DNA of 64,000 bases from a virus. Each line of letters opens with the position of its first letter. Positions within the stretch are counted from its first letter, which is position 1. The stretch lies in the IMG/VR virus record IMGVR_UViG_3300005613_000001, positions 130,279-194,278 of that record, one strand, 5' to 3'. This document shows positions 1 to 56,550 of the stretch, in pieces. Below the pieces are notes generated by a model. It saw only the letters and a program-made list of their open reading frames with translations. It was not told the origin of the DNA and did no database searches. A program made the translations under genes and the position numbers.

Positions 1-141
1 TCCAAATGAAACAACAAGACAAAGGAAACCTATACCAATGTTTAACGTTTCAACTCCAAGCCAACTCTTCACCAAATAAACTGCTAGCACATGGTATCCT
101 ATAGTAATGCCCGCCGCAATTAAATAAACGAAATAATGCAT
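1..141 (-). CDS. Membrane protein, 3' part cut by window edge
   Basis: The 47 visible N-terminal residues are strongly hydrophobic and look like a membrane segment or signal anchor. The start ATG overlaps the stop of the upstream gene (TAATG), so it is probably translationally coupled to the E2-like genes. The C-terminus lies outside the window. Family not recognised. Confidence 0.55.
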   Translation of the reverse strand, partial: MHYFVYLIAAGITIGYHVLAVYLVKSWLGVETLNIGIGFLCLVVSFG

Positions 142-896: not shown

Positions 897-1444
897 TATT
901 CATCATCCATAAAATAATGTCGATTTCTTGCCCAATATACTTGTCCGCACTTATAATCTAAAAACCTCTTATATGAAACAACATGCTTGTCGTCTTTGAA
1001 AAACCATAAACGCCTCTTGCTCTGCTGTAATTTCAACACTACAGGTCCAATTTTGAGGCGGGACCAGTTTTTATAACCCCCAAAATATTTCCTTGCAAAA
1101 CGTCGCCCCGCCTCCATATGTTGATTGAATGCTGTTTGCCAAACCAAATCAAAGGGGTGATTGGCATATTCATGCTGCCCGCCTAAACAGAAATGCCAAT
1201 CTCCAACATGTACATTGGGAAGGGCAGGGAAATACAATTCAGTATGAAGGCTTTGAACGGGTTGTGCAGCAAAGGCTATATGTATCCTTTGCTGCTGTGC
1301 TAAAGCAAGAATGACATACGGGAACTGGAGGGTGTATTCTTTATTCCCGATGCGAACTGTGCGACGAGTGGGTTTATATTCCCGCACAGTCAGAGAAGGT
1401 TTAGCAAGTAATCTCCGATAACTTTGATTAGCTTCTATAATCAT
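896..1444 (-). CDS. E2-like ubiquitin-conjugating family protein
   Basis: 182 aa, essentially the bare E2-like core. It has YKPTRRT (23-29), LQFPYV (39-44), IAF, LYFPALPNV (70-78), then Cys86 in HFCLGG at the position equivalent to Cys149 of its neighbour, and later W-x-x-AFNQH. This is the simplest member of the five-protein family and best shows the domain limits. It overlaps the preceding gene by 17 bp and the next one by a single base, so both E2-like genes are probably co-translated. No JAB, E1 or Ubl gene adjoins it here; those are at 42.9-45.3 kb. Confidence 0.6.
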   Translation of the reverse strand: MIIEANQSYRRLLAKPSLTVREYKPTRRTVRIGNKEYTLQFPYVILALAQQQRIHIAFAAQPVQSLHTELYFPALPNVHVGDWHFCLGGQHEYANHPFDLVWQTAFNQHMEAGRRFARKYFGGYKNWSRLKIGPVVLKLQQSKRRLWFFKDDKHVVSYKRFLDYKCGQVYWARNRHYFMDDE

Positions 1445-3001: not shown

Positions 3002-3924
3002 TTTTTAACTCCTAAATGAATCTTAATCCAACCATCATCATCAATTTCAACGGCATCAAAAACCTTCTTTACCTTATCAACATCAATCGCCTTAACTATC
3101 TCTTCAATCTTCTGAACCGTTTCCTTGTCAAATAAACGAAATATGTCCAGAAGACCTTGTACTTGGGCTTTCTGCTGCGCTACGAGATGCTTGTCAAGTT
3201 CCTCCGGTACAAGTGTTATCAATTTTTCCTTAACCGCCTCATATGTCAATCCAACATCTTTTAAAATTATCTGATGATGGGAAGTTGTCTTTTGACCAGT
3301 TGTGGCATCCCGTTGCGGCCTTAAAAGACCTAAAAGAAGATGCTCGGTGCCCACATAGAGTATCCCACTATCATCAGTAGTTGCTTCCTCCATAGCATAA
3401 TCCATTAGCGTTTTAGCTGCCGGAGATAACGGAATCTTCCCAATAGGGCTAGCCTCCGAGCCCTTCACCATCAATTTCTCTAATCTGCATTCAATGTCTG
3501 CCGGGGATACCTTCATGGATTCCAAAAGCTTAACAGCAACCCCACCACGCTCTCTTACTATTCCAAAAATAATGTGCTCTAAATCAACTTGCATGTGATT
3601 ATAACTACGTGCAACTTGATTGGCTATTGACATCACCTTGCGGGCACGATCAGAAAATCGTTCGTACATACTTGTCTCCCTAAGTTTATTCACACCAGCA
3701 CCGATTTCTTTTCGGTGCGATGGCAGTCCATTCGTAACCGGAAGCACTACACTAAAGGCTCTGTTGCAACGGGAATTGCTACCTTCTACTTTCTCCGTAG
3801 CCTCTTTTTCTACATCGCCAGTTCCACACAAAAAAACATTATTCCCTATGTGGGTAACTACGTCACTTCCACACAAAGGGCAGAATTTTATCCGATGCTT
3901 CTTATAATGCTTCCTCATCTTCAT
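2998..3924 (-). CDS. Stand-alone Clp N-terminal domain protein
   Basis: 308 aa. An N-terminal zinc ribbon (CPLC at 15-18, later Cys33 and Cys53) precedes a double Clp-N repeat: about residues 87-150 (ERFSDRARKVMSIANQ, LEHIIFGIVRE) and 165-205 (LSPAAKTLMDYAMEEA, GTEHLLLGLLR). These match the substrate-receiving N-domain of ClpC/ClpA. No AAA+ domain follows, so it cannot unfold proteins alone. It could be an adaptor, decoy or inhibitor of host ClpC. The C-terminal 70 residues are acidic and helical. First gene of the 1-4 kb operon. Confidence 0.75.
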   Translation of the reverse strand: MKMRKHYKKHRIKFCPLCGSDVVTHIGNNVFLCGTGDVEKEATEKVEGSNSRCNRAFSVVLPVTNGLPSHRKEIGAGVNKLRETSMYERFSDRARKVMSIANQVARSYNHMQVDLEHIIFGIVRERGGVAVKLLESMKVSPADIECRLEKLMVKGSEASPIGKIPLSPAAKTLMDYAMEEATTDDSGILYVGTEHLLLGLLRPQRDATTGQKTTSHHQIILKDVGLTYEAVKEKLITLVPEELDKHLVAQQKAQVQGLLDIFRLFDKETVQKIEEIVKAIDVDKVKKVFDAVEIDDDGWIKIHLGVKK

Positions 3925-4014
3925 TCCTATGCGGCCTGGGACTTGCGGGGTTGCTCACCCACCAGTTGCGCGCAGGGGCTTGCTAGCCAACCCCGCTGGC
4001 TCCCAGAGTCAAAG

Positions 4015-4085
4015 TGCGCCTGGGGGGAATCGAACCCCCACATTCAGCTTGGGAAGCTGACACGCTACCACTACATCACAGGCGC
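4015..4085 (-). tRNA. tRNA-Gly(CCC)
   Basis: Full cloverleaf. Acceptor GCGCCTG pairs with CAGGCGC, anticodon loop TTCCCAA, T-loop TTCGATT. No encoded CCA. It is separated from the next tRNAs by a terminator and has its own sigma70-like promoter at 4105-4132. Confidence 0.9.
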
Positions 4086-4104
4086 AAACGGAGACCCCAT
4101 GACT

Positions 4105-4132
4105 ATTATACCATAGGTTCTCCGTATGTTAA
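4105..4132 (-). promoter_or_regulatory. sigma70-like promoter for tRNA-Gly
   Basis: On the minus strand TTAACA, 16-bp spacer, TATAAT, placed about 20 bp upstream of tRNA-Gly(CCC) and just after the terminator of the upstream cluster. Confidence 0.55.
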
Positions 4133-4169
4133 CGAAGAAGGATTAGTATTAACCAAATTGTCAAAGACC

Positions 4170-4196
4170 AAAAAAACGGGGGGCATTTAGCCCCCC
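4170..4196 (-). terminator. Rho-independent terminator of first tRNA cluster
   Basis: Minus-strand hairpin GGGGGGC-TAAAT-GCCCCCC followed by a seven-T run, immediately after tRNA-Ala(GGC). Confidence 0.8.
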
Positions 4197-4198
4197 AG

Positions 4199-4270
4199 TG
4201 GAGATGGTGGGATTCGAACCCACGACTTCGACACTGCCAGTGTCGCACGCTCCCGCTGCGTCACATCCCC
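4199..4270 (-). tRNA. tRNA-Ala(GGC)
   Basis: Acceptor GGGGATG pairs with CATCTCC, anticodon loop CTGGCAG, canonical T-loop, no CCA encoded. Last gene before the terminator. Confidence 0.9.
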
Positions 4271-4275
4271 ATCAG

Positions 4276-4350
4276 TGGAGGTTACGGGACTCGAACCCGT
4301 GAATCCTCTGCCTTGCAAAAGCAGCGCTCTCCCAACTGAGCTAAACCCCC
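4276..4350 (-). tRNA. tRNA-Ala(TGC)
   Basis: Acceptor GGGGGTT pairs with AACCTCC, anticodon loop TTTGCAA, five bases from tRNA-Ala(GGC). Confidence 0.9.
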
Positions 4351-4354
4351 AAAG

Positions 4355-4452
4355 TAGGACTGGAAGGAATCGAACCTTCTCCTAGAGTTAATCTGACTCT
4401 ACCTTTCGGCCAAGGTTATAAGCCTTGTGTGCTTCCATTACACCACAGTCCC
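4355..4452 (-). tRNA. Non-canonical tRNA, probably Ile(TAT), with about 31-nt variable region
   Basis: Acceptor GGGACTG pairs with CAGTCCT, D-arm GTGTAATGGAAGCAC and T-arm GAAGG-TTCGATT-CCTTC are normal. The anticodon arm CAAGG-CTTATAA-CCTTG gives TAT. About 31 nt then separate it from the T-arm, including a GCCGAAAGGT stretch and a second hairpin (AGAGT-CAGATTA-ACTCT). Total 98 nt. The amino acid identity is uncertain. Confidence 0.6.
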
Positions 4453-4488
4453 TAATGTTACAACTCCCGCATGCAATTCAGAATGACG

Positions 4489-4560
4489 TAGGCGATGTTG
4501 GTTTCGCACCAACGGCCTCTACTGTGTGAAAGTAGCGCTCTTCTCCTGAGCTAATCGCCT
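4489..4560 (-). tRNA. tRNA-Val(CAC), copy 1
   Basis: Acceptor AGGCGAT pairs with ATCGCCT, anticodon loop TTCACAC, T-loop TGCGAAA (unusual second base). Nearly identical to 5458-5529. Its 5' end overlaps the stop codon of 4551-4745. Confidence 0.85.
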
Positions 4561-4745
4561 AAAGTATAATTCTCCCAATCGTTTAATTCTCCAACGGTAT
4601 AATTCTCCCCTATGCTCTTTGCCCACCAAATTCTACATTCAGTACAAACGTATTTATAAACGTAAATAAGCTCTCTCGTCACTTTATCTGTTACGTGTTT
4701 TGTATCTCCGCATTTTGGACAAAGTGGTAATTCTAAAATACTCAT
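4551..4745 (-). CDS. Small zinc-ribbon protein
   Basis: 64 aa from ATG 4745 (longer frames read through a tRNA-like stretch and are rejected). Two CxxC pairs, CPKC (about residues 8-11) and CTEC, form a zinc ribbon. The stop TAG is the conserved U8-A9-G10 of tRNA-Val(CAC), so gene and tRNA overlap by 10 bp. Confidence 0.5.
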   Translation of the reverse strand: MSILELPLCPKCGDTKHVTDKVTRELIYVYKYVCTECRIWWAKSIGENYTVGELNDWENYTLGD

Positions 4746-4747
4746 AG

Positions 4748-4813
4748 CTGACCCACTAGGATTCGAACCTAGACTAAAAGAACCAGTCTGCCGCACCATT
4801 TGGCTTCGCTCCC
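4748..4813 (-). pseudogene. Degenerate tRNA (Arg-TCT-like)
   Basis: T-arm CTAGG-TTCGAAT-CCTAG, D-arm and an anticodon-like arm (GACTG/TAGTC) are present. The two acceptor strands (GGGAGCG and TGGGTCA) do not pair, so it is probably not functional. Confidence 0.5.
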
Positions 4814-4818
4814 ATTCT

Positions 4819-5049
4819 TCACTCTTCAGAACACCCACACCCTTCCATAAATTCATCCCATTCAAAAGGATGAAATTGTTTATTTAGTGCATTAGCAATT
4901 CTATTACACACTCTACTCCACTGGGAATCTGTCAAATCTTGGAGTGTGATTTCTTTTCTGGCTAATGCCAATTCCTCGGCAAACTCATCCAAATTAATTG
5001 GTGTCAGATTTAAGCATTCCGCTAAATCTTCTAAATACAAATTTTCCAT
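4819..5049 (-). CDS. Small acidic helical protein, unknown
   Basis: 76 aa, acidic, predicted all-helical by composition, ending in CGCSEE. The start abuts the stop of a possible small gene (TAAATG). No recognised family. Confidence 0.45.
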   Translation of the reverse strand: MENLYLEDLAECLNLTPINLDEFAEELALARKEITLQDLTDSQWSRVCNRIANALNKQFHPFEWDEFMEGCGCSEE

Positions 5050-5163
5050 TTATTTCTTCTTTTCTACCCACTTAACTCCAGGGTCTATTCCCTGCCGTTC
5101 CAATTCGCGGGCAATTCTCACATCCCTCACTGCCAACTTCTTTTCTTTTTTACATCTAACCAA
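5050..5163 (-). CDS. Possible 37-aa basic peptide
   Basis: TTG start, Lys/Arg-rich sequence ending in KWVEKKK; stop abuts the next start. Only coupling and composition support it. Confidence 0.3.
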   Translation of the reverse strand: MVRCKKEKKLAVRDVRIARELERQGIDPGVKWVEKKK

Positions 5164-27987: not shown

Positions 27988-28593
27988 TTATCTTCTCCCA
28001 GATGTTAATTGTTCCATAAAGGTTTTAAATGGGGCTCTGTAAAACGTAGGAGCCTTATTCATTATTTCATATAACTTCTCTAAAGTCAATTCAGACCACT
28101 TGTTAGCAGTCATTCTTTGACCATAATCAGAAAAGCCTCTGAATTCACTCTGCCAAAACTTCGTGACCATTGCATCTAAATCTAATTTAGGTTGCCAGTA
28201 GCAATGATCCCAGTCCAAACAGCACGGTCCAAATATCTTTTGGTCAAAATGAGCCGGGAAAGGCATACGACTAAGCGTTGCTTCCATAAGCTCTTCCTTG
28301 CTCAATTCCGACAAATCCTCAAAAGCATATCCGCCATATAAATATCCTCCCTCTCTATACGGCTGGAATGCAAACACCAAATGAGGAAATTGAACATATA
28401 TGTGCTTCTTCTGGTTATAAACAGTTCTCCTTTTCGGTGGATACAATCTTACTTCATGACCATCCTGCACCAGCAAAATCTTGTACTCAGGATCGCTTTT
28501 TGCGAAATCACTCTTCTTTACGGCCTTCTTTCGTGGTTTTCGTGTTCGTGGAGTTCGCTTCTTTGCACTTTTAACAGCTTCGCTCATTTCCAA
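27988..28593 (-). CDS. E2-like ubiquitin-conjugating family protein
   Basis: 201 aa. A basic N-terminal tail (KKRTPRTRKPRKKAVKK) precedes the shared core: YPPKRRT (51-57), VQFPHLVFAF (67-76), GGYAF, then MPFPAHFD replacing the usual LPN, and Cys124-Cys125 at the catalytic position, followed by FWQSEF. It lies alone among tRNAs. It is the most divergent of the five E2-like proteins and has tandem Cys. Confidence 0.55.
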   Translation of the reverse strand: MEMSEAVKSAKKRTPRTRKPRKKAVKKSDFAKSDPEYKILLVQDGHEVRLYPPKRRTVYNQKKHIYVQFPHLVFAFQPYREGGYLYGGYAFEDLSELSKEELMEATLSRMPFPAHFDQKIFGPCCLDWDHCYWQPKLDLDAMVTKFWQSEFRGFSDYGQRMTANKWSELTLEKLYEIMNKAPTFYRAPFKTFMEQLTSGRR

Positions 28594-36986: not shown

Positions 36987-37073
36987 GCGCTGGGGCTTGG
37001 AATCGAACCAAGCGTTTTTACCGGCTGCCCATTATAGACATGAGGTAGTGTTCTACCATTGAACTACCCAACA
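36987..37073 (-). tRNA. Non-canonical tRNA, loop reads CTA (possible amber suppressor)
   Basis: T-arm GCTTGG-TTCGATT-CCAAGC and D-arm GTTCAATGGTAGAAC are clear; acceptor TGTTGGG pairs with CCCAGCG. The anticodon region CTACC-T-CAT-GTCTATA-ATG-GGCAG is longer than normal. Loop GTCTATA reads CTA; alternatively CAT with an insertion. Confidence 0.5.
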
Positions 37074-37074
37074 G

Positions 37075-37146
37075 TGGTCGGAGCGGGAATTGAACCACGC
37101 ATCTCCCTCTTTAATGGAGGGCGTTCTAGCGTTGAACTATCCAACC
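37075..37146 (-). tRNA. tRNA with loop CATTAAA (TTA, possible ochre suppressor)
   Basis: Acceptor GGTTGGA pairs with TCCGACC, anticodon stem CCCTC/GAGGG. Loop positions 34-36 are TTA but position 33 is A, not T. The T-stem has a bulge. Neighbour of the CTA candidate with a similar D-arm. Confidence 0.55.
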
Positions 37147-37298
37147 ATAACCCTGTCGGGGTCGCAGGGCTTAAAACCCATTTTGACGATCCAACAGGGA
37201 ACAAATAGTGAGAGTAAGAGGTTTAGTTCCTTTACTGGCGTTCAGGAATCTAACCTGCCAGGCCCTACTCTCCAATTTGGACTACACACAACGCAACT
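37147..37298 (-). pseudogene. tRNA-like remnants
   Basis: CCTGTTGG/CCGACAGG (about 37150-37198) closes a 47-nt mini element. A second element (about 37238-37294) has a T-loop-like CAGG-TTAGATT-CCTG and a TCCAAATTGGA hairpin but no anticodon arm. Confidence 0.35.
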
Positions 37299-42400: not shown

Positions 42401-42631
42401 CTACACAAAATCCGATGCATCAAACTCAGACATTCTTCGGATCATTACCGCAAGTTCATCATTAGGCCACCAACTTGGAAGATCACTCCAATAGCCAGTT
42501 GTTGGCTTAAATTCACCACCAAATTGCAAGTGGGCTTGCTGTAGCAATATTGTGGCAGCAGCAAGAGTATAAGGCCCAAACACTTTTGGACCACCATCAT
42601 ACGGCTTTGTGACGATTACGTAATCCATCAT
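42401..42631 (-). CDS. Small protein, unknown
   Basis: 76 aa (MMDYVIVTKPYDGGPKVFGPYTLAAATIL). ATGA overlap with csrA, so probably in the Ubl operon's tail. Confidence 0.4.
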   Translation of the reverse strand: MMDYVIVTKPYDGGPKVFGPYTLAAATILLQQAHLQFGGEFKPTTGYWSDLPSWWPNDELAVMIRRMSEFDASDFV

Positions 42632-42807
42632 TCATCCTTCTTGTAGATTGCATCAAATACTTCCTTGCGATGCACAGGAACCTCCTTCGGGGCTTCAACG
42701 CCCAATCTCACTTTGTCTCCGCGTACCTCTACAACTGTAATCACAACAGGGTTGTCTTTGTCGCCAATGATGATACTCTCATTTTTCTTGCGACTTAAAA
42801 CAATCAT
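42628..42807 (-). CDS. csrA: Carbon storage regulator CsrA
   Basis: 59 aa, full family length, from ATG 42807 behind AGGAG. MIVLSRKKNESIIIGD, VVEVRGDKVRLGVEAPKEVPVHRKEV contain the RNA-binding strands (VxLGxxAPxxxxVxRxEV). CsrA dimers bind GGA motifs in mRNA leaders and block or aid translation. A phage copy could reprogram host mRNA use. A strong hairpin separates it from the Ubl gene. Confidence 0.92.
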   Translation of the reverse strand: MIVLSRKKNESIIIGDKDNPVVITVVEVRGDKVRLGVEAPKEVPVHRKEVFDAIYKKDE

Positions 42808-42838
42808 GATGAAACTCCTAAAAGGTAAACGCATATAA

Positions 42839-42893: not shown

Positions 42894-43220
42894 TTAGCCC
42901 TTTTGACCAGCAACCTTCACAAACTCCAGAGTATCATGCTCTTGGAGAATGTAGTTGCCATCAACCAACTCGCCATTCACGCGAGCTTGGGCGTCTTCAG
43001 GGATATTGAGAACGTGCTTCAATTCTCCCCGAACGGTCACTACATCGTGACCGGAAATACTTAAGGTTTGTGCTTCAGCCCCATAAAGGACTTCTACGTT
43101 ACCGAGCGCCTTATCGATCTTTTCCTTTGAAGCGGAAACATCGGGCGCGTTCCCTGCCCCACCGCTTGGCTTTTGCTGAGCAGCTTGCTTGGGCTTTTCC
43201 TTTTGAACTTGCTTCGCCAT
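42894..43220 (-). CDS. Ubiquitin-like modifier (ThiS/MoaD/PRTRC-C-like beta-grasp)
   Basis: 108 aa. A flexible Lys/Gln/Gly-rich N-terminal tail (1-30) precedes a beta-grasp-like domain (about 42-105). Its pattern VEVLYG, QTLSISG, VRGELKHVLNIPEDAQARVNGELVDGNYILQEHDTLEFVKV is typical of ThiS/Ubl folds, with the VNGELV turn and D-TLEF strand before the tail. It ends GQKG rather than GG; the terminal Gly would be adenylated by the E1 encoded next door. This is the substrate tag of the cassette. Ubl identity rests on fold pattern and context. Confidence 0.75.
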   Translation of the reverse strand: MAKQVQKEKPKQAAQQKPSGGAGNAPDVSASKEKIDKALGNVEVLYGAEAQTLSISGHDVVTVRGELKHVLNIPEDAQARVNGELVDGNYILQEHDTLEFVKVAGQKG

Positions 43221-43252
43221 TTAAACTCTCCTTGTGATAGAAACAACCAACC

Positions 43253-43939
43253 TTACGATCTTTTACGAGTGTTAGACTTATTAGCTAGAACATCAAGATA
43301 CGCCTCATCGTACTCTATCTCACCTTCAAGGTACGCATAAAACGCATTCAACATTCCGGCTGCAATGTAGTTGTTGGCGATCAAAAGCTGTGGTTCACTC
43401 ACAACTTCAACGTCACAACCACCCTCACGCTCTTCAATGTCTGCCGGACTTTCATCTTCGGGCTCTTCAATTTCAGGATGATATTCATTTGCAATTGGAA
43501 GGGTTAGGTTTTCCCCATCTTTGCGAATATGAACCTGAACGTTTCCGTCAATGTAGTCGTTTCCACCCGAAATCACAACCACATTATCCAACTCTTCACA
43601 ATGGTCGGATACCAACTTGCGAGTGGCATGATTATCCACACACGAAAAGATAAGATCACCTTCCCTCAAAAGCATGATGATGTTATCTTGGTCGATATAA
43701 GTGGGGTGCGACCGGAAGAAAATAGAGGGGAATTCTTTCTCCAACACCTTCGCGGTTACTTCCGCTTTATTCCCCAATTCATCGAAGGCTTGTCGGTCAC
43801 GATTCTTTTCTTCGTAAGTATCTCCATCAATAAGAGAAATTTCCGTGTCCTGTAACTCAGGATGGTAATTCAAAAACCTACAAAGCGTATCAAGTAAGCG
43901 ACCGGCAATCCCGCCGCAACCAATCACCCGTATTTTCAT
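43253..43939 (-). CDS. E1-like ThiF-family activating enzyme
   Basis: 228 aa. VIGCGGIAGRLLD (5-17) is the ATP-binding glycine motif; DGDTYEEKNRDRQ (38-50) matches the DxDxxxxxNxxRQ signature; FSCVDNHATRKLV (98-110) is the conserved Asp/Asn strand; Cys175 in GGCDVEVVSEPQ is the candidate thioester Cys. It would adenylate and load the Ubl. The ATGA overlap with the JAB gene couples their translation. Confidence 0.85.
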   Translation of the reverse strand: MKIRVIGCGGIAGRLLDTLCRFLNYHPELQDTEISLIDGDTYEEKNRDRQAFDELGNKAEVTAKVLEKEFPSIFFRSHPTYIDQDNIIMLLREGDLIFSCVDNHATRKLVSDHCEELDNVVVISGGNDYIDGNVQVHIRKDGENLTLPIANEYHPEIEEPEDESPADIEEREGGCDVEVVSEPQLLIANNYIAAGMLNAFYAYLEGEIEYDEAYLDVLANKSNTRKRS

Positions 43940-45285
43940 GCTTTACTCCCTTCATCATTAGGCTCCGAATCCGGCAATGCATCTTTCTGCGAAGCAAGAC
44001 CATATCCATCCACCTTAATATTTTCTTCGGTGTCTTCTTCGCCTTCTTCGCCTTCCCAAACATCATCACCCATTTGGGCATTTCGTTCTTGCTCTTCGGC
44101 AGCTTCAAGTTCGGACTCTTTTACCCAAACACCACCGGCTGTTTGCATATAAGTTTCGCCACCCGTATCTTCATCATCGTCTTCAATATCCTGATGAAGT
44201 ACCGTGCCGCCACTACGACTGCCTTGACCAAAGCCAAAACCTCCATAGTTTTGCCAAACTTTTTTTGAGACTTTGGGCAACCAATGAGCATCCATGTGGG
44301 CTTCCATTTCGGCCTTCATGGTCTGCAATTGTTCGGCTGTAAAGTCAAAGTCGTAGTAGTTTTGGTAACCACTGGAAATGTAGTAGCTCTTCTTGGCTTT
44401 AGCATCACCAATGCGAACCATATTCAACGCAACATTTTCACAATCTACCTCTTCCCGGTAGTCATTCAACACCAAAGAAGATGCAACCGAAAAATGTTCG
44501 TCAGTAACGTGGCCCAAGGTTAAATGCACACCATCAAAACTGGCTTCATCACCTGTATCTGTGCCAGAGTGGAACGCATTAAAACTGGGGTGGGAGTGAA
44601 TAGTGCCGACATTCATAAAACCGGCATTAGCCAATTCAAGCATAGCTTGATCCGGCTGTCCCCACTGGTTTTGTTCAGCCGCCGTCAAATTGGCGGGAGC
44701 ATTAAGTTTGCCACTAGGACTCTTAACATAGAATCTGCGGTCGTATGAAATAGAACCGCCACTCACTTCCTGCTTTGGACAATGCAAAGCATATTGCTTC
44801 GTTTCGGGATTAAAGGCAATGATAACAACACCTTCTGCCTTGTGTGCCCGATAAACTTTGCGGAAGAACAGCAATGCCCGATAAATGATTTCACCTGGCA
44901 ACTTGGGCAGCATCATGTTGATATACGGTTCAACAGCATAAAGCCCTTGATAGTTGCCTTCATCATCATCTTCGAACTTTTCACCAGTAAGAGGATCGAT
45001 GAGAGTCAAATCTTCTTCATTCTCATCATCATCCTTCTTCCAGTAGCTATAAGTAGGTTTTGTTTCGGTTTTTGAACCCTTTAGATAGACAGGCCCATCC
45101 GGTGTGTCAATACAATATCCCACTTTCACCATACCGGGAACGTCTTTCACTGGCATGGCAATTAGACCCTCAAACAGCCCAACGTCCTTGCGGACAAAGG
45201 CACCATTCGCAGCGATCACGAAATATGTCCCCCGTTCGGGGAATTCCACACCATCTTTAGCTACTATAACCGGATAGATTCCCAT
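43936..45285 (-). CDS. JAB/JAMM metalloprotease (deubiquitinase-like, PRTRC-A-like)
   Basis: 449 aa. A novel N-terminal region (1-140) precedes a JAB domain: Glu151 in AEGVVIIAF, then GTIHSHPSFNAFHSGTD with His230, His232, Ser240 and Asp243 exactly fitting HxHx7Sx2D. The C-terminal 100 residues are acidic and low complexity. JAMM enzymes cleave isopeptide bonds or mature the Ubl. Since the Ubl ends GQKG, any maturation would be at or beyond the C-terminal Gly or on conjugates. Confidence 0.88.
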   Translation of the reverse strand: MGIYPVIVAKDGVEFPERGTYFVIAANGAFVRKDVGLFEGLIAMPVKDVPGMVKVGYCIDTPDGPVYLKGSKTETKPTYSYWKKDDDENEEDLTLIDPLTGEKFEDDDEGNYQGLYAVEPYINMMLPKLPGEIIYRALLFFRKVYRAHKAEGVVIIAFNPETKQYALHCPKQEVSGGSISYDRRFYVKSPSGKLNAPANLTAAEQNQWGQPDQAMLELANAGFMNVGTIHSHPSFNAFHSGTDTGDEASFDGVHLTLGHVTDEHFSVASSLVLNDYREEVDCENVALNMVRIGDAKAKKSYYISSGYQNYYDFDFTAEQLQTMKAEMEAHMDAHWLPKVSKKVWQNYGGFGFGQGSRSGGTVLHQDIEDDDEDTGGETYMQTAGGVWVKESELEAAEEQERNAQMGDDVWEGEEGEEDTEENIKVDGYGLASQKDALPDSEPNDEGSKA

Positions 45286-45370
45286 ACCATTTTCCTTCTG
45301 TTAGTGTTGTTGCTGTCTATCCTAATCTTACCATGAATTCCAAGAGTGGAAAAAATTTAGGCGGGATTTC

Positions 45371-46591
45371 TCAATAATCGTAGTATTTCTTCTTCAAGAC
45401 ATAGCGGAAGGCGTCATACCCGTACAGGTCAGCCCCGTACAATTCCTTTTTTTCTTCATTGGGGGGCGGGTCTTGCGCACAGCTAGCTAAAAGCTTCTCA
45501 TATTCCAGCCGTTTGGCCTCAGCGGCGCGGGTGGCTTTTTCGTATCTTTTCTGTTCTACTTCTGCGGCTTCCCGAGCCGATTTTAAAAGATCTTTCTCGC
45601 TGTCAAGGGCTTGATCGTATCTCTGTTGCATAACCGCCCGAACATCATCGTGCATTTGTGGGATGATAGCCCGAAGCACATCCAGAACATGCCCCTCAAT
45701 TATAGCTTTTTCGTTTATTCGCGTGCTCTCTAGACCGTCGAAACACTGCATTACCTGACTTTGAATCTTATCAGAATAAAAGGCAACCGCCTGTTGGGTT
45801 AAAAAGTCTCTTTCCCCAACATTTAAGTCAACATAATCCCTCAAGGCCCGTTCTGTGTTATGCCAAATATCTCCCAAAACAAACAAAGAATTCTTTGCTG
45901 TCTTTCTTTCCCATTTCTTTAGAGTCAATCCTTTTGGCGTATACTTTTGAAAGGCATAAACTGCATCAGTATTAAACGGTCTCGCCCAGAATTCTGCAAT
46001 TGTTTTATTCACCACTTCACAAAGACTATCACCAGTCGGAGGAAAACCTGCCCCCATACAAACATGCATGGTTCCTGAATCCATGATGTTAGGCAAATTG
46101 GCGAAGTACAAATCGTCATTAAGCGATTGTAGTGGCTTAGTTCTATACGCTACTTGAAGGAGGACTACTTCATTGTGATAAGTGACAGTAAAAATAAAAA
46201 CAACATAAGGAAAAGACAACCTGTATGCCGTCTTACTACTATCAATACAATTTTCCTCTACAAACCTCTCAGAAAAACTAACTGTGCGAACCTGAGGCTT
46301 CTGCTCTACTATAAGCGTATACTTCCCCTTATGATTTTCACAGAAAAACTTAGTGCCATCGGGAACAATAAAATTGTTTGTTTTTTGCTCAACCCACCTG
46401 GCAATATTTAATTCTATAGTTTTAGCCACATGCTCGCTAAGCTCGCCAATTGCACCCAAAGTATCATTGGCTGCCTGTATAGCTGTTTTTTGTGATATTT
46501 GAGAGACTGTGGACTGAACGATAGAAGGCACTAATTCTTTAACTAGCGCCTTCACCCGAGAGTCAGACAAATATTTATGTGGTCTTACCAT
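45371..46591 (-). CDS. E2-like protein, long form
   Basis: 406 aa. A helical N-terminal region (1-75) and an E2-like core: QKPQVRTVSF (98-107), YRLSFPYVVFIF (123-134), QVAYRTKPLQSL, LYFANLPNIMD (161-171), Cys178 in HVCMG, and FWARPFNTD. The C-terminal half is a long charged coiled coil (about 300-375) and a Tyr-rich tail. Coupled to the next E2-like gene by a 7-bp overlap. Likely conjugation enzyme of the cassette; one of the pair may be regulatory. Confidence 0.65.
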   Translation of the reverse strand: MVRPHKYLSDSRVKALVKELVPSIVQSTVSQISQKTAIQAANDTLGAIGELSEHVAKTIELNIARWVEQKTNNFIVPDGTKFFCENHKGKYTLIVEQKPQVRTVSFSERFVEENCIDSSKTAYRLSFPYVVFIFTVTYHNEVVLLQVAYRTKPLQSLNDDLYFANLPNIMDSGTMHVCMGAGFPPTGDSLCEVVNKTIAEFWARPFNTDAVYAFQKYTPKGLTLKKWERKTAKNSLFVLGDIWHNTERALRDYVDLNVGERDFLTQQAVAFYSDKIQSQVMQCFDGLESTRINEKAIIEGHVLDVLRAIIPQMHDDVRAVMQQRYDQALDSEKDLLKSAREAAEVEQKRYEKATRAAEAKRLEYEKLLASCAQDPPPNEEKKELYGADLYGYDAFRYVLKKKYYDY

Positions 46592-47676
46592 ACATCATTC
46601 TCGCTATAGCTGTTGCTGTACAGCAGTTCTTTCTGCTTCGACTTCTTCTTTTTCTTATCACCGCCTCTAGTTTTTTCTGCTTCTCTTAAAATTCCACAAC
46701 AAGCCTCATAAAGCTTGTCATAAAGGCGATTCCTGAAACAGCTAACGGCATTACGGTCAGCAGCAGAAGCCGCCTCTTGATTAGAAAGATCACCAATCAA
46801 TCTTCTCAATGCATTTGAAGCTTCTGTGACAGCCGAATCAACAATTGGACCCACTCTCATTTTTAAATCTTGAGAAGTGTCGTATGCCATTGCCATAACA
46901 TCGTGGAGCGTTGATCTGTGTTGCCAGTTTTTATTCACAATAAAAAGAGGGTCTTTTTCACTCTCAGAGGCCCAAGCGGCAAGATTTCTCAATCTTTCAT
47001 CCGACCTAGCTTCAGCATAAAAATTGTCATGAATATCATTATTAAAAGTAGAACCCCAAAATCCCTCAATAATTGAATTTCCAATGGTAGAAAGTGACCA
47101 ATCTTCTTGGGGAATTCGGTCAAGGGGTGCATAAACGGCATCTCGCCCAACACAGCAAACAAAATTGGCATCAATATTGGGAAGATTCGGTCTATAAAGT
47201 GAACTAGCAAGTGTTTTCAGTGGAATCCTACCGTAAGCCACTTGAAGACTGCGAGGATAGATTCGCCCCTGTTCCCTTTTAAGCCACATTAGAAACACAA
47301 CATATGGAAAAGCAAGCCGATAGTACCCATTGCCTAATTCGCATTCAAATTTAACTGTTCTAACAACAGGCTTTTGCTCTACGACAAGCAATTTCATATC
47401 CCCGATAGTTTTAAGGAGACGGGTGCCTTCGGGGACCACTTCAAGAACATTGTTTGTTTCTTCCCAATCATTACAAAACCGCAGAAGCCCATCACTCAAC
47501 CTACCCTTGAAACCATTAACAATACTTTCCGCAATATTTGAGACTTCTACATGCACCCTTTGGGAAAGGCTAGACATCGAAACTTTAAGAGCTTCGGCAA
47601 TAACATCTTTCATCTGCCGTGACGTTAGTAGATCTGTAACTTTGCGATCAACTAGGCTGTAATCTGCATCCCGCAT
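46585..47676 (-). CDS. E2-like protein, long form, paralogue of previous
   Basis: 363 aa. Same layout: helical N-terminus (1-70), KPVVRTVKF (102-110), YRLAFPYVVFLMW (119-131), QVAYGRIPLKTL, LYRPNLPNID (160-169), Cys174-Cys175 in VCCVG, FWGSTFNND. A C-terminal helix ends in KKKKSKQKELLYS. The N-terminal homology of the two long forms shows duplication within the operon. The start overlaps the sigma factor gene by 29 bp. Confidence 0.65.
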   Translation of the reverse strand: MRDADYSLVDRKVTDLLTSRQMKDVIAEALKVSMSSLSQRVHVEVSNIAESIVNGFKGRLSDGLLRFCNDWEETNNVLEVVPEGTRLLKTIGDMKLLVVEQKPVVRTVKFECELGNGYYRLAFPYVVFLMWLKREQGRIYPRSLQVAYGRIPLKTLASSLYRPNLPNIDANFVCCVGRDAVYAPLDRIPQEDWSLSTIGNSIIEGFWGSTFNNDIHDNFYAEARSDERLRNLAAWASESEKDPLFIVNKNWQHRSTLHDVMAMAYDTSQDLKMRVGPIVDSAVTEASNALRRLIGDLSNQEAASAADRNAVSCFRNRLYDKLYEACCGILREAEKTRGGDKKKKKSKQKELLYSNSYSENDVW

Positions 47677-48220
47677 GTCTCTTCCTTGCCTTTGATTTTA
47701 ATTTAGCAATCGCTCTCGTAATCCTTTGATTCACCCGGCCTCTTGTCACTCCATGTCTTTCCCCGACCATCTTCATACTCAATCGTTCCAAATAATACTC
47801 CAACAGCATTTGACGATCTAATTGTTCATAAGATTTTTCTAATTCAACTCCCAATATCCAACTCAACGCTTCATTATCTTCAAAGAGGCGAGCAGTATCC
47901 TCATCTAGTATTTCAATTTCATCACCACGAACTTCAGGAAACCTACCCCTTTCACGAAGTCCTTGCCACACTGCATTTCTTATACAAGCCGTAGCATAAG
48001 TAGAAAATTGGGTGCCTTTGCTGTGCTTGAAAGTATCGAGAGCTTGAGTTAGCCCCAAAAGGGCATCAGAATATTCTTCAGAATCTTTAACAGAACCTTT
48101 GACCTTACAATATTTTAAAACATAGTCAAAGGCTAACCCAAGGTGGTCTTCTATATTGAGCACATCTTCTTTAATGCACTCAACCTTGGGGACTTCCAAC
48201 AACTCAGAAGGAGGAGTCAA
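47648..48220 (-). CDS. RNA polymerase sigma-70 family factor
   Basis: 190 aa. Region 2: DALLGLTQALDTFKHSKGTQFSTYATACIRNAVWQGLR (about 50-88), the classic 2.2-2.4 helix set. Region 4: LSMKMVGERHGVTRGRVNQRITRAIAKLK, a HTH (about 148-176). Regions 1 and 3 are missing or reduced, as in ECF-like or phage late sigma factors. It lies at the head of the Ubl cassette and may direct the AT-rich promoters seen in this window. Confidence 0.82.
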   Translation of the reverse strand: MTPPSELLEVPKVECIKEDVLNIEDHLGLAFDYVLKYCKVKGSVKDSEEYSDALLGLTQALDTFKHSKGTQFSTYATACIRNAVWQGLRERGRFPEVRGDEIEILDEDTARLFEDNEALSWILGVELEKSYEQLDRQMLLEYYLERLSMKMVGERHGVTRGRVNQRITRAIAKLKSKARKRHAGCRLQPS

Positions 48221-48305: not shown

Positions 48306-48539
48306 TTATCTCTCGCGGTAGGTTATCCGTCCCTTAGAGAGATCATACGGAGAAAGCTCCACAGTCACCTTATCTCCTGGCGTGATACGGATATAATTCT
48401 TCCTCATCTTGCCGCATAATGTTGCCAGTACGGTGATGTTTTTCTCGCTTTCTTCTACCTGAAGTTCAACACGAAATGTGGTATTAGGCAACGCCTCAGT
48501 AACCACTCCATGTGCTTCAATTCCCTTTTCTTTTGCCAT
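48306..48539 (-). CDS. infA: Translation initiation factor IF-1
   Basis: 77 aa from ATG 48539. [61 protein letters not shown] matches bacterial InfA along its full length (GxVxExLPNxxFRVxL, [33 protein letters not shown]). IF-1 binds the 30S A site during initiation. A phage IF-1 is unusual, and an initiator tRNA is encoded in the same window. Confidence 0.93.
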
Positions 48540-49344
48540 TTTCCCCCTTTTTCCCATGATGATCTACAGCTTGCCCACTTTGACCATCCATAAATCCTTT
48601 GAGTTCTTCAAAAGACCACGGAGTATAACCGTAACCTAATCGGGCTCTATAATCAATACCAATATCTACCATTTTTGCATTCGGCAAATGTTCCTCTCGC
48701 CAATGTTCAAAATTGCCGTGAGAATGACCATAGCAATGCCAAACGCCTCGGTGAGATTTATCCCACACTGCATGTGCTGTGTGAGTTATCAGTATTTTCT
48801 GCCCTTCCCATCTTATCGTCACCGTATCGTGGAAAGACCGAATCAACAGTTCTAGGAAGCGGCGGTCTGTAGTCTCTTTTTCATGCCTTTGCCACTGCTC
48901 CAAAGCAGACTCTTGAGAAACCTCCCCACCCAAAACCTTTTCCAATAAATCTTTATGGAAACGATCAGGACGCATTAAATGCCGCATATCCTTATCGTGG
49001 TTACCCCAAACAATATGGATATTGCGGCAAACAATCCTATCCAATAGATGCTTTAAACGCCAAACCGATCCAAAGATAATGTCGCCAGCGATCCAAAGAT
49101 CGTCATTCTCTCCTACAACAGCATTTGTATTATCAATAATGCTGCTATTCATCCGATCCACAGTCTCACGACTGTATCGGAGTGATCTTACTGCATCATA
49201 CTCTACTTCTCCCTGCTGATACAATTGTTCCATTTGCAGGAAATTTTGCCGCTCACCTTCATTCATAAACTCTAAACGGCGGCAATAAGTCAAAATCCTC
49301 GCATGATCAAGGTGCCAATCTGCGGTAAAAAACGGTCTTCCCAT
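48517..49344 (-). CDS. Calcineurin-like metallophosphoesterase
   Basis: 275 aa. [10 protein letters not shown] (DxH), [10 protein letters not shown] (GD), [11 protein letters not shown] (GNHD), ITHTAHAVW and YGHSHGN (GHxH) are the five metal-binding motifs. Similar to phosphatase/nuclease domains in phages. Overlaps the IF-1 start by 23 bp. Confidence 0.85.
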
Positions 49345-49488: not shown

Positions 49489-50595
49489 TTAAACGGCCCA
49501 ATGGGGGTTATCCAGTGTCCATTTCACCACCTGATTAATGCTGTCCTCAAAGGTGATCGGCATTTTCCAGCCGAGCCCCTTCATCTTCGCATCATCAAGA
49601 GCGTAACGGCGATCATAACCCTTACGAGCCGATTCAGAGGGAACTAATTTATATTTAAGTTCTTTACCCATAAATTTTGCAATCATTTGGGCCAACTCAA
49701 GGTTATCCAATTCAACGTCACCACAAACATTATATCTGTCTGGACGTTCGGCACCATCCTTATACATTGCCGGAGAGAACTGGGAAAGAAAAACAAAGGC
49801 ATCGGCATGGTTCTTAGCGTGTAGATAATACCTAGCCCCAATAGAAGTTGTGCCATCATCATTCAAATCTGCATATACCGGCATTTCTTGATCTAATGCC
49901 ACTTTCTGAATGATCTTCGGCAAAAACTTCTCAGGGTCTTGCCATTCACCAAAATTATTCATTGTGTTTGTAATCACTACTGGCACATCATAAGTTCGCC
50001 AATAAGCAATCGCCATCGCCTCCTGCGCCGCCTTGCTGGCTGCATATGGATTTGAAGGCATAATTACATCCCATTCATGGTGCGCCTGATCTGGCTTGGC
50101 TTCTCCATACACTTCATCCGTTGAAACTTGGAAAAATATCTTGGGTTTAATCTTACGAGCGAATTCCAGCATGTTGATGGACAACTCATAATTATTCCTC
50201 AAACAATGAACAGGATCGGTCGTAGACCTCTCTACAGCACTATCACTCGCCATGTTGATAATATAATCAATTGGCTTTTCCACAACCTGCCCATTTTCAA
50301 ACCTTCGCTCTAAAATCTGGTTTTCTAGCTGCTGATCTATAGGAGCGATTAAATCGTGATAGTAATTTTTGAGGCGGGTGTTCATCTGGTTCAATGCATC
50401 AATATGTTTCCGCCCCTTTAATTTATAACATTTTCGTTTGTAGTTCTCTAAAGCATCATTCAAACGAGTGTATGTGCCTTTGTGGCGAAACGAATCAAGA
50501 CCAATGATTTCCCAATCAGTATTGAATAGAAAGTAGTCTACACAATGGGAACCTATAAACCCCGCATGTCCGGTAAGAAGAACTCGCTTAGGCAT
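49489..50595 (-). CDS. rmlB: dTDP-glucose 4,6-dehydratase-like SDR enzyme
   Basis: 368 aa from ATG 50595. VLLTGHAGFIGSHCVDYFL (NAD-binding GxxGxxG), VSTDEVYGEAK, NPYAASKAAQEAMAIAYWRTYDVPVVITNTMNNFGEWQ with the YxxxK catalytic pair, and a C-terminal substrate domain. It would make a 4-keto-6-deoxy nucleotide sugar for the many glycosyltransferases here. Exact sugar specificity unknown. Confidence 0.82.
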   Translation of the reverse strand: MPKRVLLTGHAGFIGSHCVDYFLFNTDWEIIGLDSFRHKGTYTRLNDALENYKRKCYKLKGRKHIDALNQMNTRLKNYYHDLIAPIDQQLENQILERRFENGQVVEKPIDYIINMASDSAVERSTTDPVHCLRNNYELSINMLEFARKIKPKIFFQVSTDEVYGEAKPDQAHHEWDVIMPSNPYAASKAAQEAMAIAYWRTYDVPVVITNTMNNFGEWQDPEKFLPKIIQKVALDQEMPVYADLNDDGTTSIGARYYLHAKNHADAFVFLSQFSPAMYKDGAERPDRYNVCGDVELDNLELAQMIAKFMGKELKYKLVPSESARKGYDRRYALDDAKMKGLGWKMPITFEDSINQVVKWTLDNPHWAV

Positions 50596-50597
50596 TT

Positions 50598-51122
50598 TTA
50601 TCTCCAATGGAAGTGATAGTTGTATCTTGAATATGGTTGATAATACGGACGATGATAATACGGACGATATTGATATGGCAACGTGTAGGGATAAAACCAT
50701 GCATGTTGTTTTGTGACTCTTTGATTAGACATTTCCCTTTGTTTTAATATTTGCTGTATTCGCATGTCTTGTGCCTTGCGAAAAGATTCATGAGCCATTT
50801 GAGCTTGAGCAACCTTCACCTTATAAACATCAAGAAACATCCTCGCCTCGGTATTGCTCATACCTTCAAATTCTGCCTTCTTTTCCTGATAGTCCGCCTC
50901 AGTAAAATCTTTTCTAACGCGGAATTCATAGGCCAACCGAGATAAGTACCAATTTTTCTCCGTTTGAAGGGTAGCATCAAGAGCGGTGTCCGCCACCTCC
51001 TCCGTTTCCTCCTCCATTGGCATTTCTATAACAACAGGCGGGGGAGGATCAACCCAATCCATTGTAAACCCCATATGAAGATCACCCACAATAAACGCTG
51101 ATAATATAAATAGACTATTCAT
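50598..51122 (-). CDS. Secreted Tyr-rich protein
   Basis: 174 aa with a hydrophobic N-terminus that could be a signal peptide (MNSLFILSAFIVGDL), a helical middle, and a C-terminus rich in Tyr/Pro/His (about 140-174). Unknown role, possibly structural or surface. Confidence 0.5.
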   Translation of the reverse strand: MNSLFILSAFIVGDLHMGFTMDWVDPPPPVVIEMPMEEETEEVADTALDATLQTEKNWYLSRLAYEFRVRKDFTEADYQEKKAEFEGMSNTEARMFLDVYKVKVAQAQMAHESFRKAQDMRIQQILKQREMSNQRVTKQHAWFYPYTLPYQYRPYYHRPYYQPYSRYNYHFHWR

Positions 51123-54697: not shown

Positions 54698-55591
54698 TTA
54701 TTTTGGTTTTATGTCTAAATAAGAGTCTGGGGTTTTAGAATTTAAAATATCAGCATTCAAATCTTTCATATAACGAAGATAACTCGCATCAAATTGCGAA
54801 TACCCATTAAATCCAATTCGTCGCAATACTCCATCTGGATCGCTGCTAGATTTCATAAACTCATGCAACACATCCTGCCCAAATTCTTTTCTTATCAACA
54901 AACACAACGCTAAGCTTTGTGTATCAAATAATTCCTTTTCTTCTTTACTTAGCTTCATATAGCCATCCTCATCCATAGCAAACATAGCTTTACTGAAAAA
55001 CAACTCTTTATGTTCTCGCAGCATAGCCAATTGGGTGCGTATTAATGGAACGGTGTTATTGAGTCTTGATACACCTCGATAAACCCAAGTTCTTAATCTC
55101 AATCCATGTTTCTGGTCAAACTCACTTAAACATGGTGTCGTAAGACATTCAGGAACTACCTCTGATGGTGAGTCATCTAAAAGCAGCCAAACAGCCGACA
55201 TTGTTATTTTATTAGACTCCTTTCTCACTTCTGCCCTTGAATCCTCTATTCTAAATAACTTTTTCATTAAGGTTTTTGTTGGAACGCAAATCACCCGACA
55301 TTCCGAAGAAAAATCAACATTTGGGAATCCCCACCTTTTCATAACCCAGGTCTTAATTTTCTCAATGTTCCGAGCCATAAAAAGACCTTGATCTTCTTCC
55401 AACGCCAAAACTGTGAAATTCTCCGTTGTCCAACGATGCCATTCCAGATCCTTAATTTCAGGATCATCGAAACCCCAATCTTCCATTTTCTCCGTGCCAT
55501 GATAAACCACGGGTTCTGGAAATGCCTCCTGCGCCTGCGTGGCGGTTACCATAACCACCATAAGAATTAAAGCGCTCGCTACCTTAAACAT
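54698..55591 (-). CDS. Secreted protein, unknown
   Basis: 297 aa with a signal peptide (MFKVASALILMVVMVTATQAQ). Middle part (FTVLALEEDQGLFMARNIEKIKTWVMKRWGFPN) resembles peptidase-MA-like proteins, but no HExxH is present. Overlaps the amidoligase gene by 13 bp. Confidence 0.5.
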   Translation of the reverse strand: MFKVASALILMVVMVTATQAQEAFPEPVVYHGTEKMEDWGFDDPEIKDLEWHRWTTENFTVLALEEDQGLFMARNIEKIKTWVMKRWGFPNVDFSSECRVICVPTKTLMKKLFRIEDSRAEVRKESNKITMSAVWLLLDDSPSEVVPECLTTPCLSEFDQKHGLRLRTWVYRGVSRLNNTVPLIRTQLAMLREHKELFFSKAMFAMDEDGYMKLSKEEKELFDTQSLALCLLIRKEFGQDVLHEFMKSSSDPDGVLRRIGFNGYSQFDASYLRYMKDLNADILNSKTPDSYLDIKPK

Positions 55592-56550
55592 TTTCTCTCT
55601 CCCATTGTACAGGTTTCTAATAGTTTCTTAGCTGAAATTTGAATCTTTCGATTGGTGGCATGTAAGGCTAGTCTTTTTAAAAACCAAACCTTAGCATTAT
55701 ATAGAGTTCTGCTTAGTATATAAAAATTACTCGAATTTGACAAGCCTAAAATATTTAATGTAGTTTCAACATCAACACACTTTAAGTTTCTAGGCATCGT
55801 TAATGTTTCATAATTATCAACAAAAGATACAAAAAGTTGCACCCAATTTTTAATACACTCTCCATCTAAAGTGCCTTCAGGAAATCTGAATTCTATTGTA
55901 CTTCGATCAAAAGTCTTACGCCGACGACTGCGGGCGTAATTCACTAAGTTTAACGCTACCTGTTTTTGATTATTTTCATGAATTGATATGTCAGTAGGGC
56001 AGATGATTTTCCAAAACTCTAATGGATCATACCGCCTCAATAAACTTAACTTCTTCATCTTAGAACCAACGAGCGGACTGCAATAACTTGTGATTCTCCG
56101 ATCAGGGGCGATACATTGCATCATTACATTTTCAATTTTAAACCAATTGGCTAAAAGGACACCAATCTGTTCCGGTTCAAAATCTCCCACACCCACATGA
56201 ACGTGCAAGCCACAGTTATCGTTGATCGTCAATCCACGCCGCCTCAAATGATTTGCAATTTTCCCAATGTGCTGCAAATCTTGGTAGCCGGAGGCTTTGT
56301 ATGATGCGACTTCCCATCCATGATCAAAATACTTTCCAAGGGGACCACAGGTGGCATCATATTTAACATGCCAAAAATCGTTATTTAAAGATTGTGCCCA
56401 ACCATTGCCGCTGCTGGGTACACGAACTGATTTAAAAGAAACCTCTTTTATAAAAGAGGCGATGTCCTTGCGGGGGACTTCGGGGCCAACTTCTAGTTCC
56501 ACCCCAAAACTACGGTTGCTAGAAAACCGCTTATACTGAATAGCATGCAT
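55579..56550 (-). CDS. Amidoligase-family protein (COOH-NH2 ligase)
   Basis: 323 aa. FGVELEVGPEV (about 15-25) and WHVKYDATCG, GWEVASYKASG, NCGLHVHVGVGDF, STIEFRFPEGTL reproduce the GxExE ... D ... G-E-S ... HxH ... E-R pattern of the glutamine-synthetase-like amidoligase_2 family, which joins amino groups to carboxyls. It could modify peptides or proteins. Whether it acts with the Ubl cassette 8 kb away is unknown. Confidence 0.78.
   Translation of the reverse strand: MHAIQYKRFSSNRSFGVELEVGPEVPRKDIASFIKEVSFKSVRVPSSGNGWAQSLNNDFWHVKYDATCGPLGKYFDHGWEVASYKASGYQDLQHIGKIANHLRRRGLTINDNCGLHVHVGVGDFEPEQIGVLLANWFKIENVMMQCIAPDRRITSYCSPLVGSKMKKLSLLRRYDPLEFWKIICPTDISIHENNQKQVALNLVNYARSRRRKTFDRSTIEFRFPEGTLDGECIKNWVQLFVSFVDNYETLTMPRNLKCVDVETTLNILGLSNSSNFYILSRTLYNAKVWFLKRLALHATNRKIQISAKKLLETCTMGERKCLR

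Follow-up and report, generated by a model that had tools for sequence, protein, structure and literature searches.

The DNA analysed here (the window, 64,000 nucleotides) corresponds to bases 130279-194278 of a 527,112-bp IMG/VR virus record (G000 in the locus labels), which may be incomplete, and it carries on its minus strand, at window positions 42894-47676, a cassette of five open reading frames (ORFs) coding for a ubiquitin-like protein (Ubl), an E1-like activating enzyme, a JAB/JAMM metalloprotease and two E2-like proteins (E2a and E2b). Taken as a whole, this cassette is best explained as a ubiquitin-like conjugation pathway encoded by the phage and related to PRTRC by ancestry, a reading to which we give a probability of roughly 0.7. 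In the direction of transcription the order is sigma factor, E2b, E2a, JAB, E1, Ubl and CsrA. A preliminary description of this DNA had presented the five genes as adjacent and overlapping; their coordinates, strand and adjacency hold, but overlaps are found at only two of the four junctions (7 nucleotides between E2b and E2a, and 4 between JAB and E1), the other two being gaps of 85 nucleotides (E2a-JAB) and 32 nucleotides (E1-Ubl). The assignment of the cassette to a phage was borne out by a terminase large subunit (TerL; phrog_2, 9e-45) encoded in the same record, about 260 kb away. The presence of the cassette is confirmed, and it is not a chance arrangement, since the same order is found in about 50 viral loci with the catalytic residues kept.

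The E1-like protein (positions 43253-43939, minus strand; 228 amino acids) has a ThiF fold, matches Pfam ThiF (PF00899) with 60.1 bits (cut-off 28.1, 2e-16) and contains the GCGG motif. Ten relatives share with it the invariant columns D38-G39-D40, N46, R49, Q50, K58, D102 and C175, which include the adenylation residues (D38, N46, R49, K58 and D102), so that both its score and these residues place it in the ThiF/E1 superfamily. Its N-terminal half aligns with MoeB (1jw9), and among NCBIfam models it scores highest with PRTRC_ThiF (54.4 bits, below the cut-off of 144.75). It is the only cassette-type E1 of the window's phage; a second, ordinary ThiF-family protein (L074, G000 218386-219120, 152 bits) is without the HPE...C motif. 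The JAB protein (43936-45285, minus strand; 449 amino acids, with an acidic C-terminal tail) carries HSHPSFNAFHSGTD at residues 230-243, an exact HxHx7Sx2D site, and this JAMM site is kept in 43 of 47 cases across the viral loci. Against Prok-JAB (PF14464, cut-off 25) it reaches 25.7 bits in the genome scan and 24.8 bits, just under the cut-off, in the protein scan, its best NCBIfam model being PRTRC_A (5e-6, 26.3 bits, cut-off 101.8). The Ubl (42894-43220, minus strand; 108 amino acids) is composed of a disordered N-terminus, a beta-grasp domain at about residues 41-102 and the C-terminus AGQKG. Its AlphaFold2 model is a beta-grasp with a predicted local distance difference test score of 92-95 over residues 41-100, and matches TGS-domain, MoaD-type and ubiquitin-type structures in the PDB at E below 1e-3; in Pfam it gives sub-threshold ThiS/TGS matches. 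Thus, the ThiF-type E1 with GCGG and a candidate Cys175, the JAB site and the beta-grasp Ubl ending in Gly, all proposed previously from the sequence, stand as described. The tail GxKG, followed by zero to five residues, is found in 38 of 39 distinct Ubl relatives, and the additions seen in several of them (C, SL, NI, DG or DRKGC) suggest a maturation job for a JAB. Purifying selection on E1 and Ubl is strong (dN/dS, the ratio of nonsynonymous to synonymous substitution rates, of 0.02-0.08 and 0.04-0.07, respectively, in close pairs where it is computable), with higher values for JAB and E2.

E2a (45371-46591, minus strand; 406 amino acids) has LPN at residue 166, Cys178 and a helical C-terminal extension, and belongs to alignments A2/A4, whose family profile matches PRTRC B and Prok-E2_D; E2b (46585-47676, minus strand; 363 amino acids) has LPN at 165 and Cys175. 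In the AlphaFold2 model of E2b a confident core (about residues 81-265) is surrounded by helical N- and C-terminal regions. Among 27 aligned sequences the invariant columns of E2b are P82, P103, P124, N167 and C175, identifying Cys175, of the pair Cys174/175, as the conserved cysteine. Across the family this Cys is kept in 96 of 96 distinct sequences and aligns with the Cys of PRTRC protein B; the Asn is kept in 99% of them, with an Asn-to-Cys spacing of 8 residues in 58. This is the spacing of eukaryotic HPN...C E2s. Relatives of E2a and E2b match Prok-E2_D (PF14460, cut-off 25) at sub-threshold scores, and the cut-off is exceeded by a further E2-like protein of the window (positions 141-896, 31.3 bits) and by the cassette E2 of genome G016 (34.9 bits), with zero matches in 14 control genomes. 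Comparison of the cassette E2 profile with PRTRC B using hhalign gave a probability of 96.6% (E 7e-10), against less than 0.1% for the other five PRTRC proteins. In the reverse search, the phage E2 profile found at most one match in each of ten plasmid and phage records, and in the two PRTRC plasmids matched the hit falls within the PRTRC B gene.

The LPN motif and the cysteines (Cys178 and Cys174/175) of the two E2-like proteins were correctly recognised in the preliminary description, but two is an undercount for this phage. A profile search of the record found 15 places, of which 14 are ORFs that keep the Cys and one is a 51-amino-acid fragment; there are therefore at least 14 Cys-bearing E2-like genes, three of them lying in the window beyond the cassette. 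The first (141-896, minus strand; 251 amino acids, Cys149) is the one over the Prok-E2_D cut-off, and its N-terminal part (residues 3-101) resembles a D5-like transcriptional regulator (phrog_323, 3.7e-8). The second (896-1444, minus strand; 182 amino acids, Cys86) matches the A2 and A4 profiles with E 4e-14 and 3e-41, and Prok-E2_D sub-threshold (15.3 bits). The third (27988-28593, minus strand; 201 amino acids, Cys124/125) lies in a tRNA array, has a Lys-rich N-terminus and matches the A4 profile at 1e-13. Other added parts on E2 copies are Lys-rich N-termini and a histone-H1-like Lys/Ala tail (L083/L088); in L088 1521-2546 (G000 309520-310545) the E2-like core is followed by a long H1-like Lys/Ala repeat tail. 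The 15 places contrast with at most one in each of the ten other plasmid and phage records. A single E1 and a single Ubl against many E2s is the pattern expected if substrates are chosen by the E2s.

Scans with the E1 identified 49 viral loci and six genome-bin loci, many of which are near-duplicates, so that the independent viruses are fewer than the loci. These relatives were reached by the E1 scan and profiles, since a single-protein scan of viral contigs with E2b returned zero relatives; a nucleotide search of INPHARED with 20 kb gave nothing. JAB and E1 neighbour each other in almost every viral locus, with the Ubl just downstream and an E2-like gene accompanying them, while in L029, L046, L050 and L052 the Ubl lies upstream of E2-JAB-E1, which is the PRTRC order. 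The loci fall into different settings. In the window and in L001 (setting a), a sigma-70-type factor (47648-48220, minus strand; Sigma70_r2/r4, about 3e-9 to 4e-9) lies directly upstream of E2b, the end of its gene and the start of E2b sharing 29 nucleotides (the same layout as L001_5595_6170), and a CsrA-like regulator (42628-42834, minus strand; PF02599, 79.9 bits) lies directly downstream of the Ubl. In 14 loci (setting b; L002-L004, L019-L028 and L054) phage RNA polymerase beta' and beta genes are found a few kb downstream and, in most of them, SMC/Rad50-like, metallophosphoesterase and radical-SAM genes upstream; RNA polymerase beta' was not found in the window's record nor in seven of the eight relatives tested with it. 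Many setting b loci also have another ThiF-like gene immediately after the Ubl and near the E1; it is without the catalytic Cys motif and might serve as an inactive partner, like that of heterodimeric E1s. In 28 loci (setting c; L005-L014, L030-L044, L048, L049 and L051) the Ubl is followed by an AAA+ gene whose best PDB matches are Cdc48/p97 (1.5e-54) and which, among NCBIfam models, scores highest with CDC48 (5e-33, below cut-off), and usually after it by a further tandem pair of E2-like genes. In the window's own phage, an AAA+ gene beside an E2-like triplet (G000 3490-5100) was considered as a Cdc48 candidate; by eye its sequence is RuvB/clamp-loader-like, and it was not counted. Contigs assigned to genome bins of Moranbacteria, Parcubacteria and Woesearchaeota (L052, L053 and L054, with two copies in L053) hold the cassette as well; these are likely phage contigs within the bins.

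These neighbourhoods bear on the idea that the Ubl takes part in virion assembly, as a tail or capsid factor that undergoes processing. The lambda/T1 tail-assembly pair, TAPI (Ub-like) and TAPK (JAB), is likewise a phage Ub-like protein plus a JAB peptidase, and such pairs are found in lambdoid tail clusters (PMC1779556). That pair, however, lacks E1 and E2, sits in a tail gene cluster and has an NlpC/P60 fusion, whereas the cassette has E1 and E2-like genes, is flanked by sigma factor, CsrA, RNA polymerase or AAA+ genes instead of tail genes and is some 260 kb from the terminase, making a virion-assembly function very improbable.

By sequence comparison, the closest known kind of system is the PRTRC plasmid cassette (NCBIfam models TIGR03734-03742), whose components are equivalent to those of operon type 6d described by Iyer et al. 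2006 (PMC1779556). Both have the same order, B (E2)-A (JAB)-ThiF (E1), profile-profile comparison relates the E1 to PRTRC ThiF (99.6%) and the JAB to PRTRC A (98.8%), and curated models match relatives of the cassette proteins. PRTRC C proteins mostly end in GxKG or similar, some with residues after KG, like the phage Ubls. The resemblance to PRTRC-type cassettes suggested earlier therefore holds for gene order and for profile homology of E1, JAB and E2, but not for the model cut-offs, ParB, the match of the window Ubl to protein C or the E1 clade. The window Ubl scores 1.5% against PRTRC C in the profile comparison, with no NCBIfam match (TIGR03738, cut-off 45.95), and the cassette E2s do not match the protein B model (TIGR03737, cut-off 131.45), to which the 141-896 protein gives 18.3 bits and L046 29.4. 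The best PRTRC ParB match has 38.9 bits against a cut-off of 278.6 and lies about 95 kb away, and sub-cut-off ParB matches also occur in 9 of the 14 control genomes; PRTRC ParB, E and F were not found beside the phage cassette. A ParB-like protein with a generic PRTRC ParB match (L096 1943-3229, G000 about 78-79 kb) is encoded about 4 kb from a dispersed E2-like pair. In the E1 tree the phage E1s form one clade (100/98) and the PRTRC ThiF proteins another (100/99). Furthermore, in the phages the Ubl is usually downstream of E1, up to fourteen or more E2-like genes replace the single one of PRTRC, and the neighbours are sigma, RNA polymerase or Cdc48-like genes. The phage set is thus a new phage variant and not a PRTRC system, where it is not filed because none of the A, B, C, ThiF and ParB models is matched above its cut-off and the E1s branch apart from those of PRTRC.

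A cultured relative, Bacillus phage vB_BauM_KLEB27-3 (OM634661, 216,671 bp), also has phage-borne Ubl, E2-like, JAB and E1 genes. Its genes gp199-gp194 are in PRTRC-like order: Ubl repeats (gp199), two further proteins (gp198 and gp197, without homology to PRTRC F/E), E2-like, JAB (already annotated as a PRTRC_A domain) and ThiF (gp194). Unlike the window's phage, it has a single E2-like gene and a four-repeat polyUbl, and it is closer to PRTRC. gp194 scores 107.3 bits against the PRTRC ThiF model (cut-off 144.75) and is related at 99.5% to PRTRC ThiF and at 99.7% to the megaphage E1s, so by profile comparison it links both groups. gp199 consists of four 57-amino-acid Ubl repeats, each ending in AGVKG, and matches PRTRC_C over the cut-off (61 bits, cut-off 45.95); with 69% to the phage Ubls, it is the only tie between the window Ubl and PRTRC C. 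Repeats 2 and 3 are identical in protein, while the DNA of the repeats is 79-84% identical (16-21% of bases differ), so selection acts on the amino-acid sequence, as it does in the polyubiquitin of eukaryotes. From the junctions between repeats, the mature end is defined as ...KG, the same end as in the window Ubl.

The KLEB27-3 polyprotein is what is expected of a modifier and not of a carrier, and it is therefore relevant to the alternative of a sulfur-carrier system, in which a ThiS/MoaD-like Ubl would be converted by the E1 into a thiocarboxylate for tRNA or cofactor modification. The TGS and ThiS Pfam matches of the Ubl and its MoaD-type PDB matches, the alignment of the E1 with MoeB and ThiF and the 40 tRNA genes of the phage would suit such a role. 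Nevertheless, the cassette shows neither a rhodanese domain nor a cysteine desulfurase, it is accompanied nearly everywhere by JAB and E2-like genes and the E2 set is expanded, which leaves a sulfur carrier as quite improbable.

E1, E2 and deconjugase parts are also used against phages by two bacterial defence systems, Bil, which has a Ubl as well, and type II CBASS (PMC10097602, PMC11354881). The cassette might consequently compete with, or strip, host Ubl-based antiphage systems, and the E1 does give weak PADLOC E1-E2 matches (2e-5). CBASS, however, fuses E1 to E2 and targets its cyclase, whereas here E1 and E2 are separate genes, and PADLOC found among the five proteins no CD-NTase match and no particular resemblance to CBASS proteins apart from the common E1 fold. 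A complete E1-Ubl pair under purifying selection, together with 14 E2-like genes, exceeds what a decoy or deconjugase would need, and counter-defence is considered as improbable as the sulfur carrier.

In the conjugation pathway that we favour, the Ubl would present its GxKG end directly or after JAB trims a short tail, and in KLEB27-3 the four-Ubl polyprotein would be cut to release GxKG-type ends. The E1 would adenylate the terminal glycine and load the Ubl on the conserved Cys175, from which it would pass to the conserved Cys of an E2-like protein; this would join it to amines (lysines) of target proteins, a reaction reversible by JAB. The additional E2-like proteins, with helix-turn-helix-like (HTH-like), histone-H1-like, Lys-rich and helical extensions, would most likely be substrate adaptors sharing the E1 and Ubl. 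The proteins most likely to be tagged during takeover may be those of transcription, the nucleoid and translation, whether of the host or of the phage, a choice suggested by the neighbours and the DNA-binding-like extensions only. In related phages, the Cdc48/p97-like AAA+ gene beside the cassette suggests a segregase step in which tagged complexes would be pulled apart. A broader proposal, that huge phages run their own ubiquitin-like network, with one Ubl, one E1 and a dozen or more E2-type adaptors acting on many host and phage targets under JAMM reversal, coupled in other lineages to a Cdc48/p97-like segregase or the phage RNA polymerase and including a viral polyubiquitin in a cultured phage, we regard as evenly balanced.

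Several results weigh against the pathway. Neither E2a nor E2b gives an informative Pfam match by itself, both fall below the Prok-E2_D cut-off, and a search of the PDB sequences with E2 alignment A2 (hmmsearch) gave no UBC hit. A structural check for a UBC fold, proposed in the preliminary description, did not confirm it for E2b: Foldseek with the full-length model against the PDB returned no match at E<=0.001, and its best 50 hits included no UBC structure, so the UBC fold of the cassette E2s is putative; the top matches look like noise from long helices, and those among viral models are uncharacterised phage proteins only. The type-6d E2-like family has a conserved His downstream of the Cys (PMC1779556), which is not conserved in the phage family, where an Asp is found near that position (95%), and the most divergent E2 copies are without the Asn. 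Next to the cassette of the window itself, no Cdc48-like gene was found. Finally, the thioester relay, the isopeptide conjugates, the targets and the segregase step are elements that we infer, and for conjugates and thioesters this also counts on the negative side. The Foldseek result and the low Prok-E2_D scores, along with histone-like and HTH-like extensions that suggest DNA binding, could indicate that only E1, Ubl and JAB form a Ubl system and that the E2-like proteins are a phage paralogous family with a conserved Cys, perhaps structural or nucleic-acid-binding. This is unlikely given that Prok-E2_D is exceeded in two members and matches none of the control genomes, that hhalign gives 96-97% to PRTRC B and less than 1% to the other five PRTRC proteins, that the reverse search retrieves the PRTRC B gene on PRTRC plasmids and that the Cys is invariant.

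In prokaryotes, most of what is known of ubiquitin-type conjugation comes from bacterial defence systems and uncharacterised PRTRC-type plasmid cassettes, and in phages what was previously known is the Ubl-JAB pair for tail assembly. No paper on a phage Ubl-conjugation cassette was found in a search that covered neither subscription papers nor preprints, and the reviews of jumbo and huge phages that it found do not mention such a system. The new elements are the presence of at least 14 Cys-bearing E2-like genes in this one phage, the Cdc48/p97-like AAA+ gene in 28 loci, the RNA polymerase gene neighbourhood in 14 loci and the polyubiquitin-like protein of KLEB27-3. If true, a phage pathway with many E2s would mean that the diversification of ubiquitin-like networks was not confined to eukaryotes and that such networks aid takeover by viruses; the broader network proposed above would be the first of ubiquitin type, with diversified E2s, in any virus that infects prokaryotes. 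A Cdc48-like gene adjoining viral Ubl-conjugation genes parallels the eukaryotic ubiquitin-Cdc48 pathway. The cassette type was predicted in 2006, and a cultured phage with a polyubiquitin-like gene makes its function testable in a Bacillus host.

Other features of the window concern translation and metabolism. The 40 tRNA genes are in two arrays (4014-37701) and include adjacent suppressor-like calls at 36987-37147, with anticodons CUA (labelled Pyl) and UUA (labelled Stop); TAG is rare as a stop (4, vs 21 TAA and 20 TGA, in 45 sampled ORFs). The phage also encodes translation initiation factor IF-1 (48306-48557, 82 bits), a nucleotide-sugar epimerase/dehydratase (49489-50700, phrog_540, 5e-72) and, about 8 kb from the cassette, an amidoligase-like protein (55579-56550, phrog_2443, 5e-21), a possible peptide- or protein-tagging enzyme.

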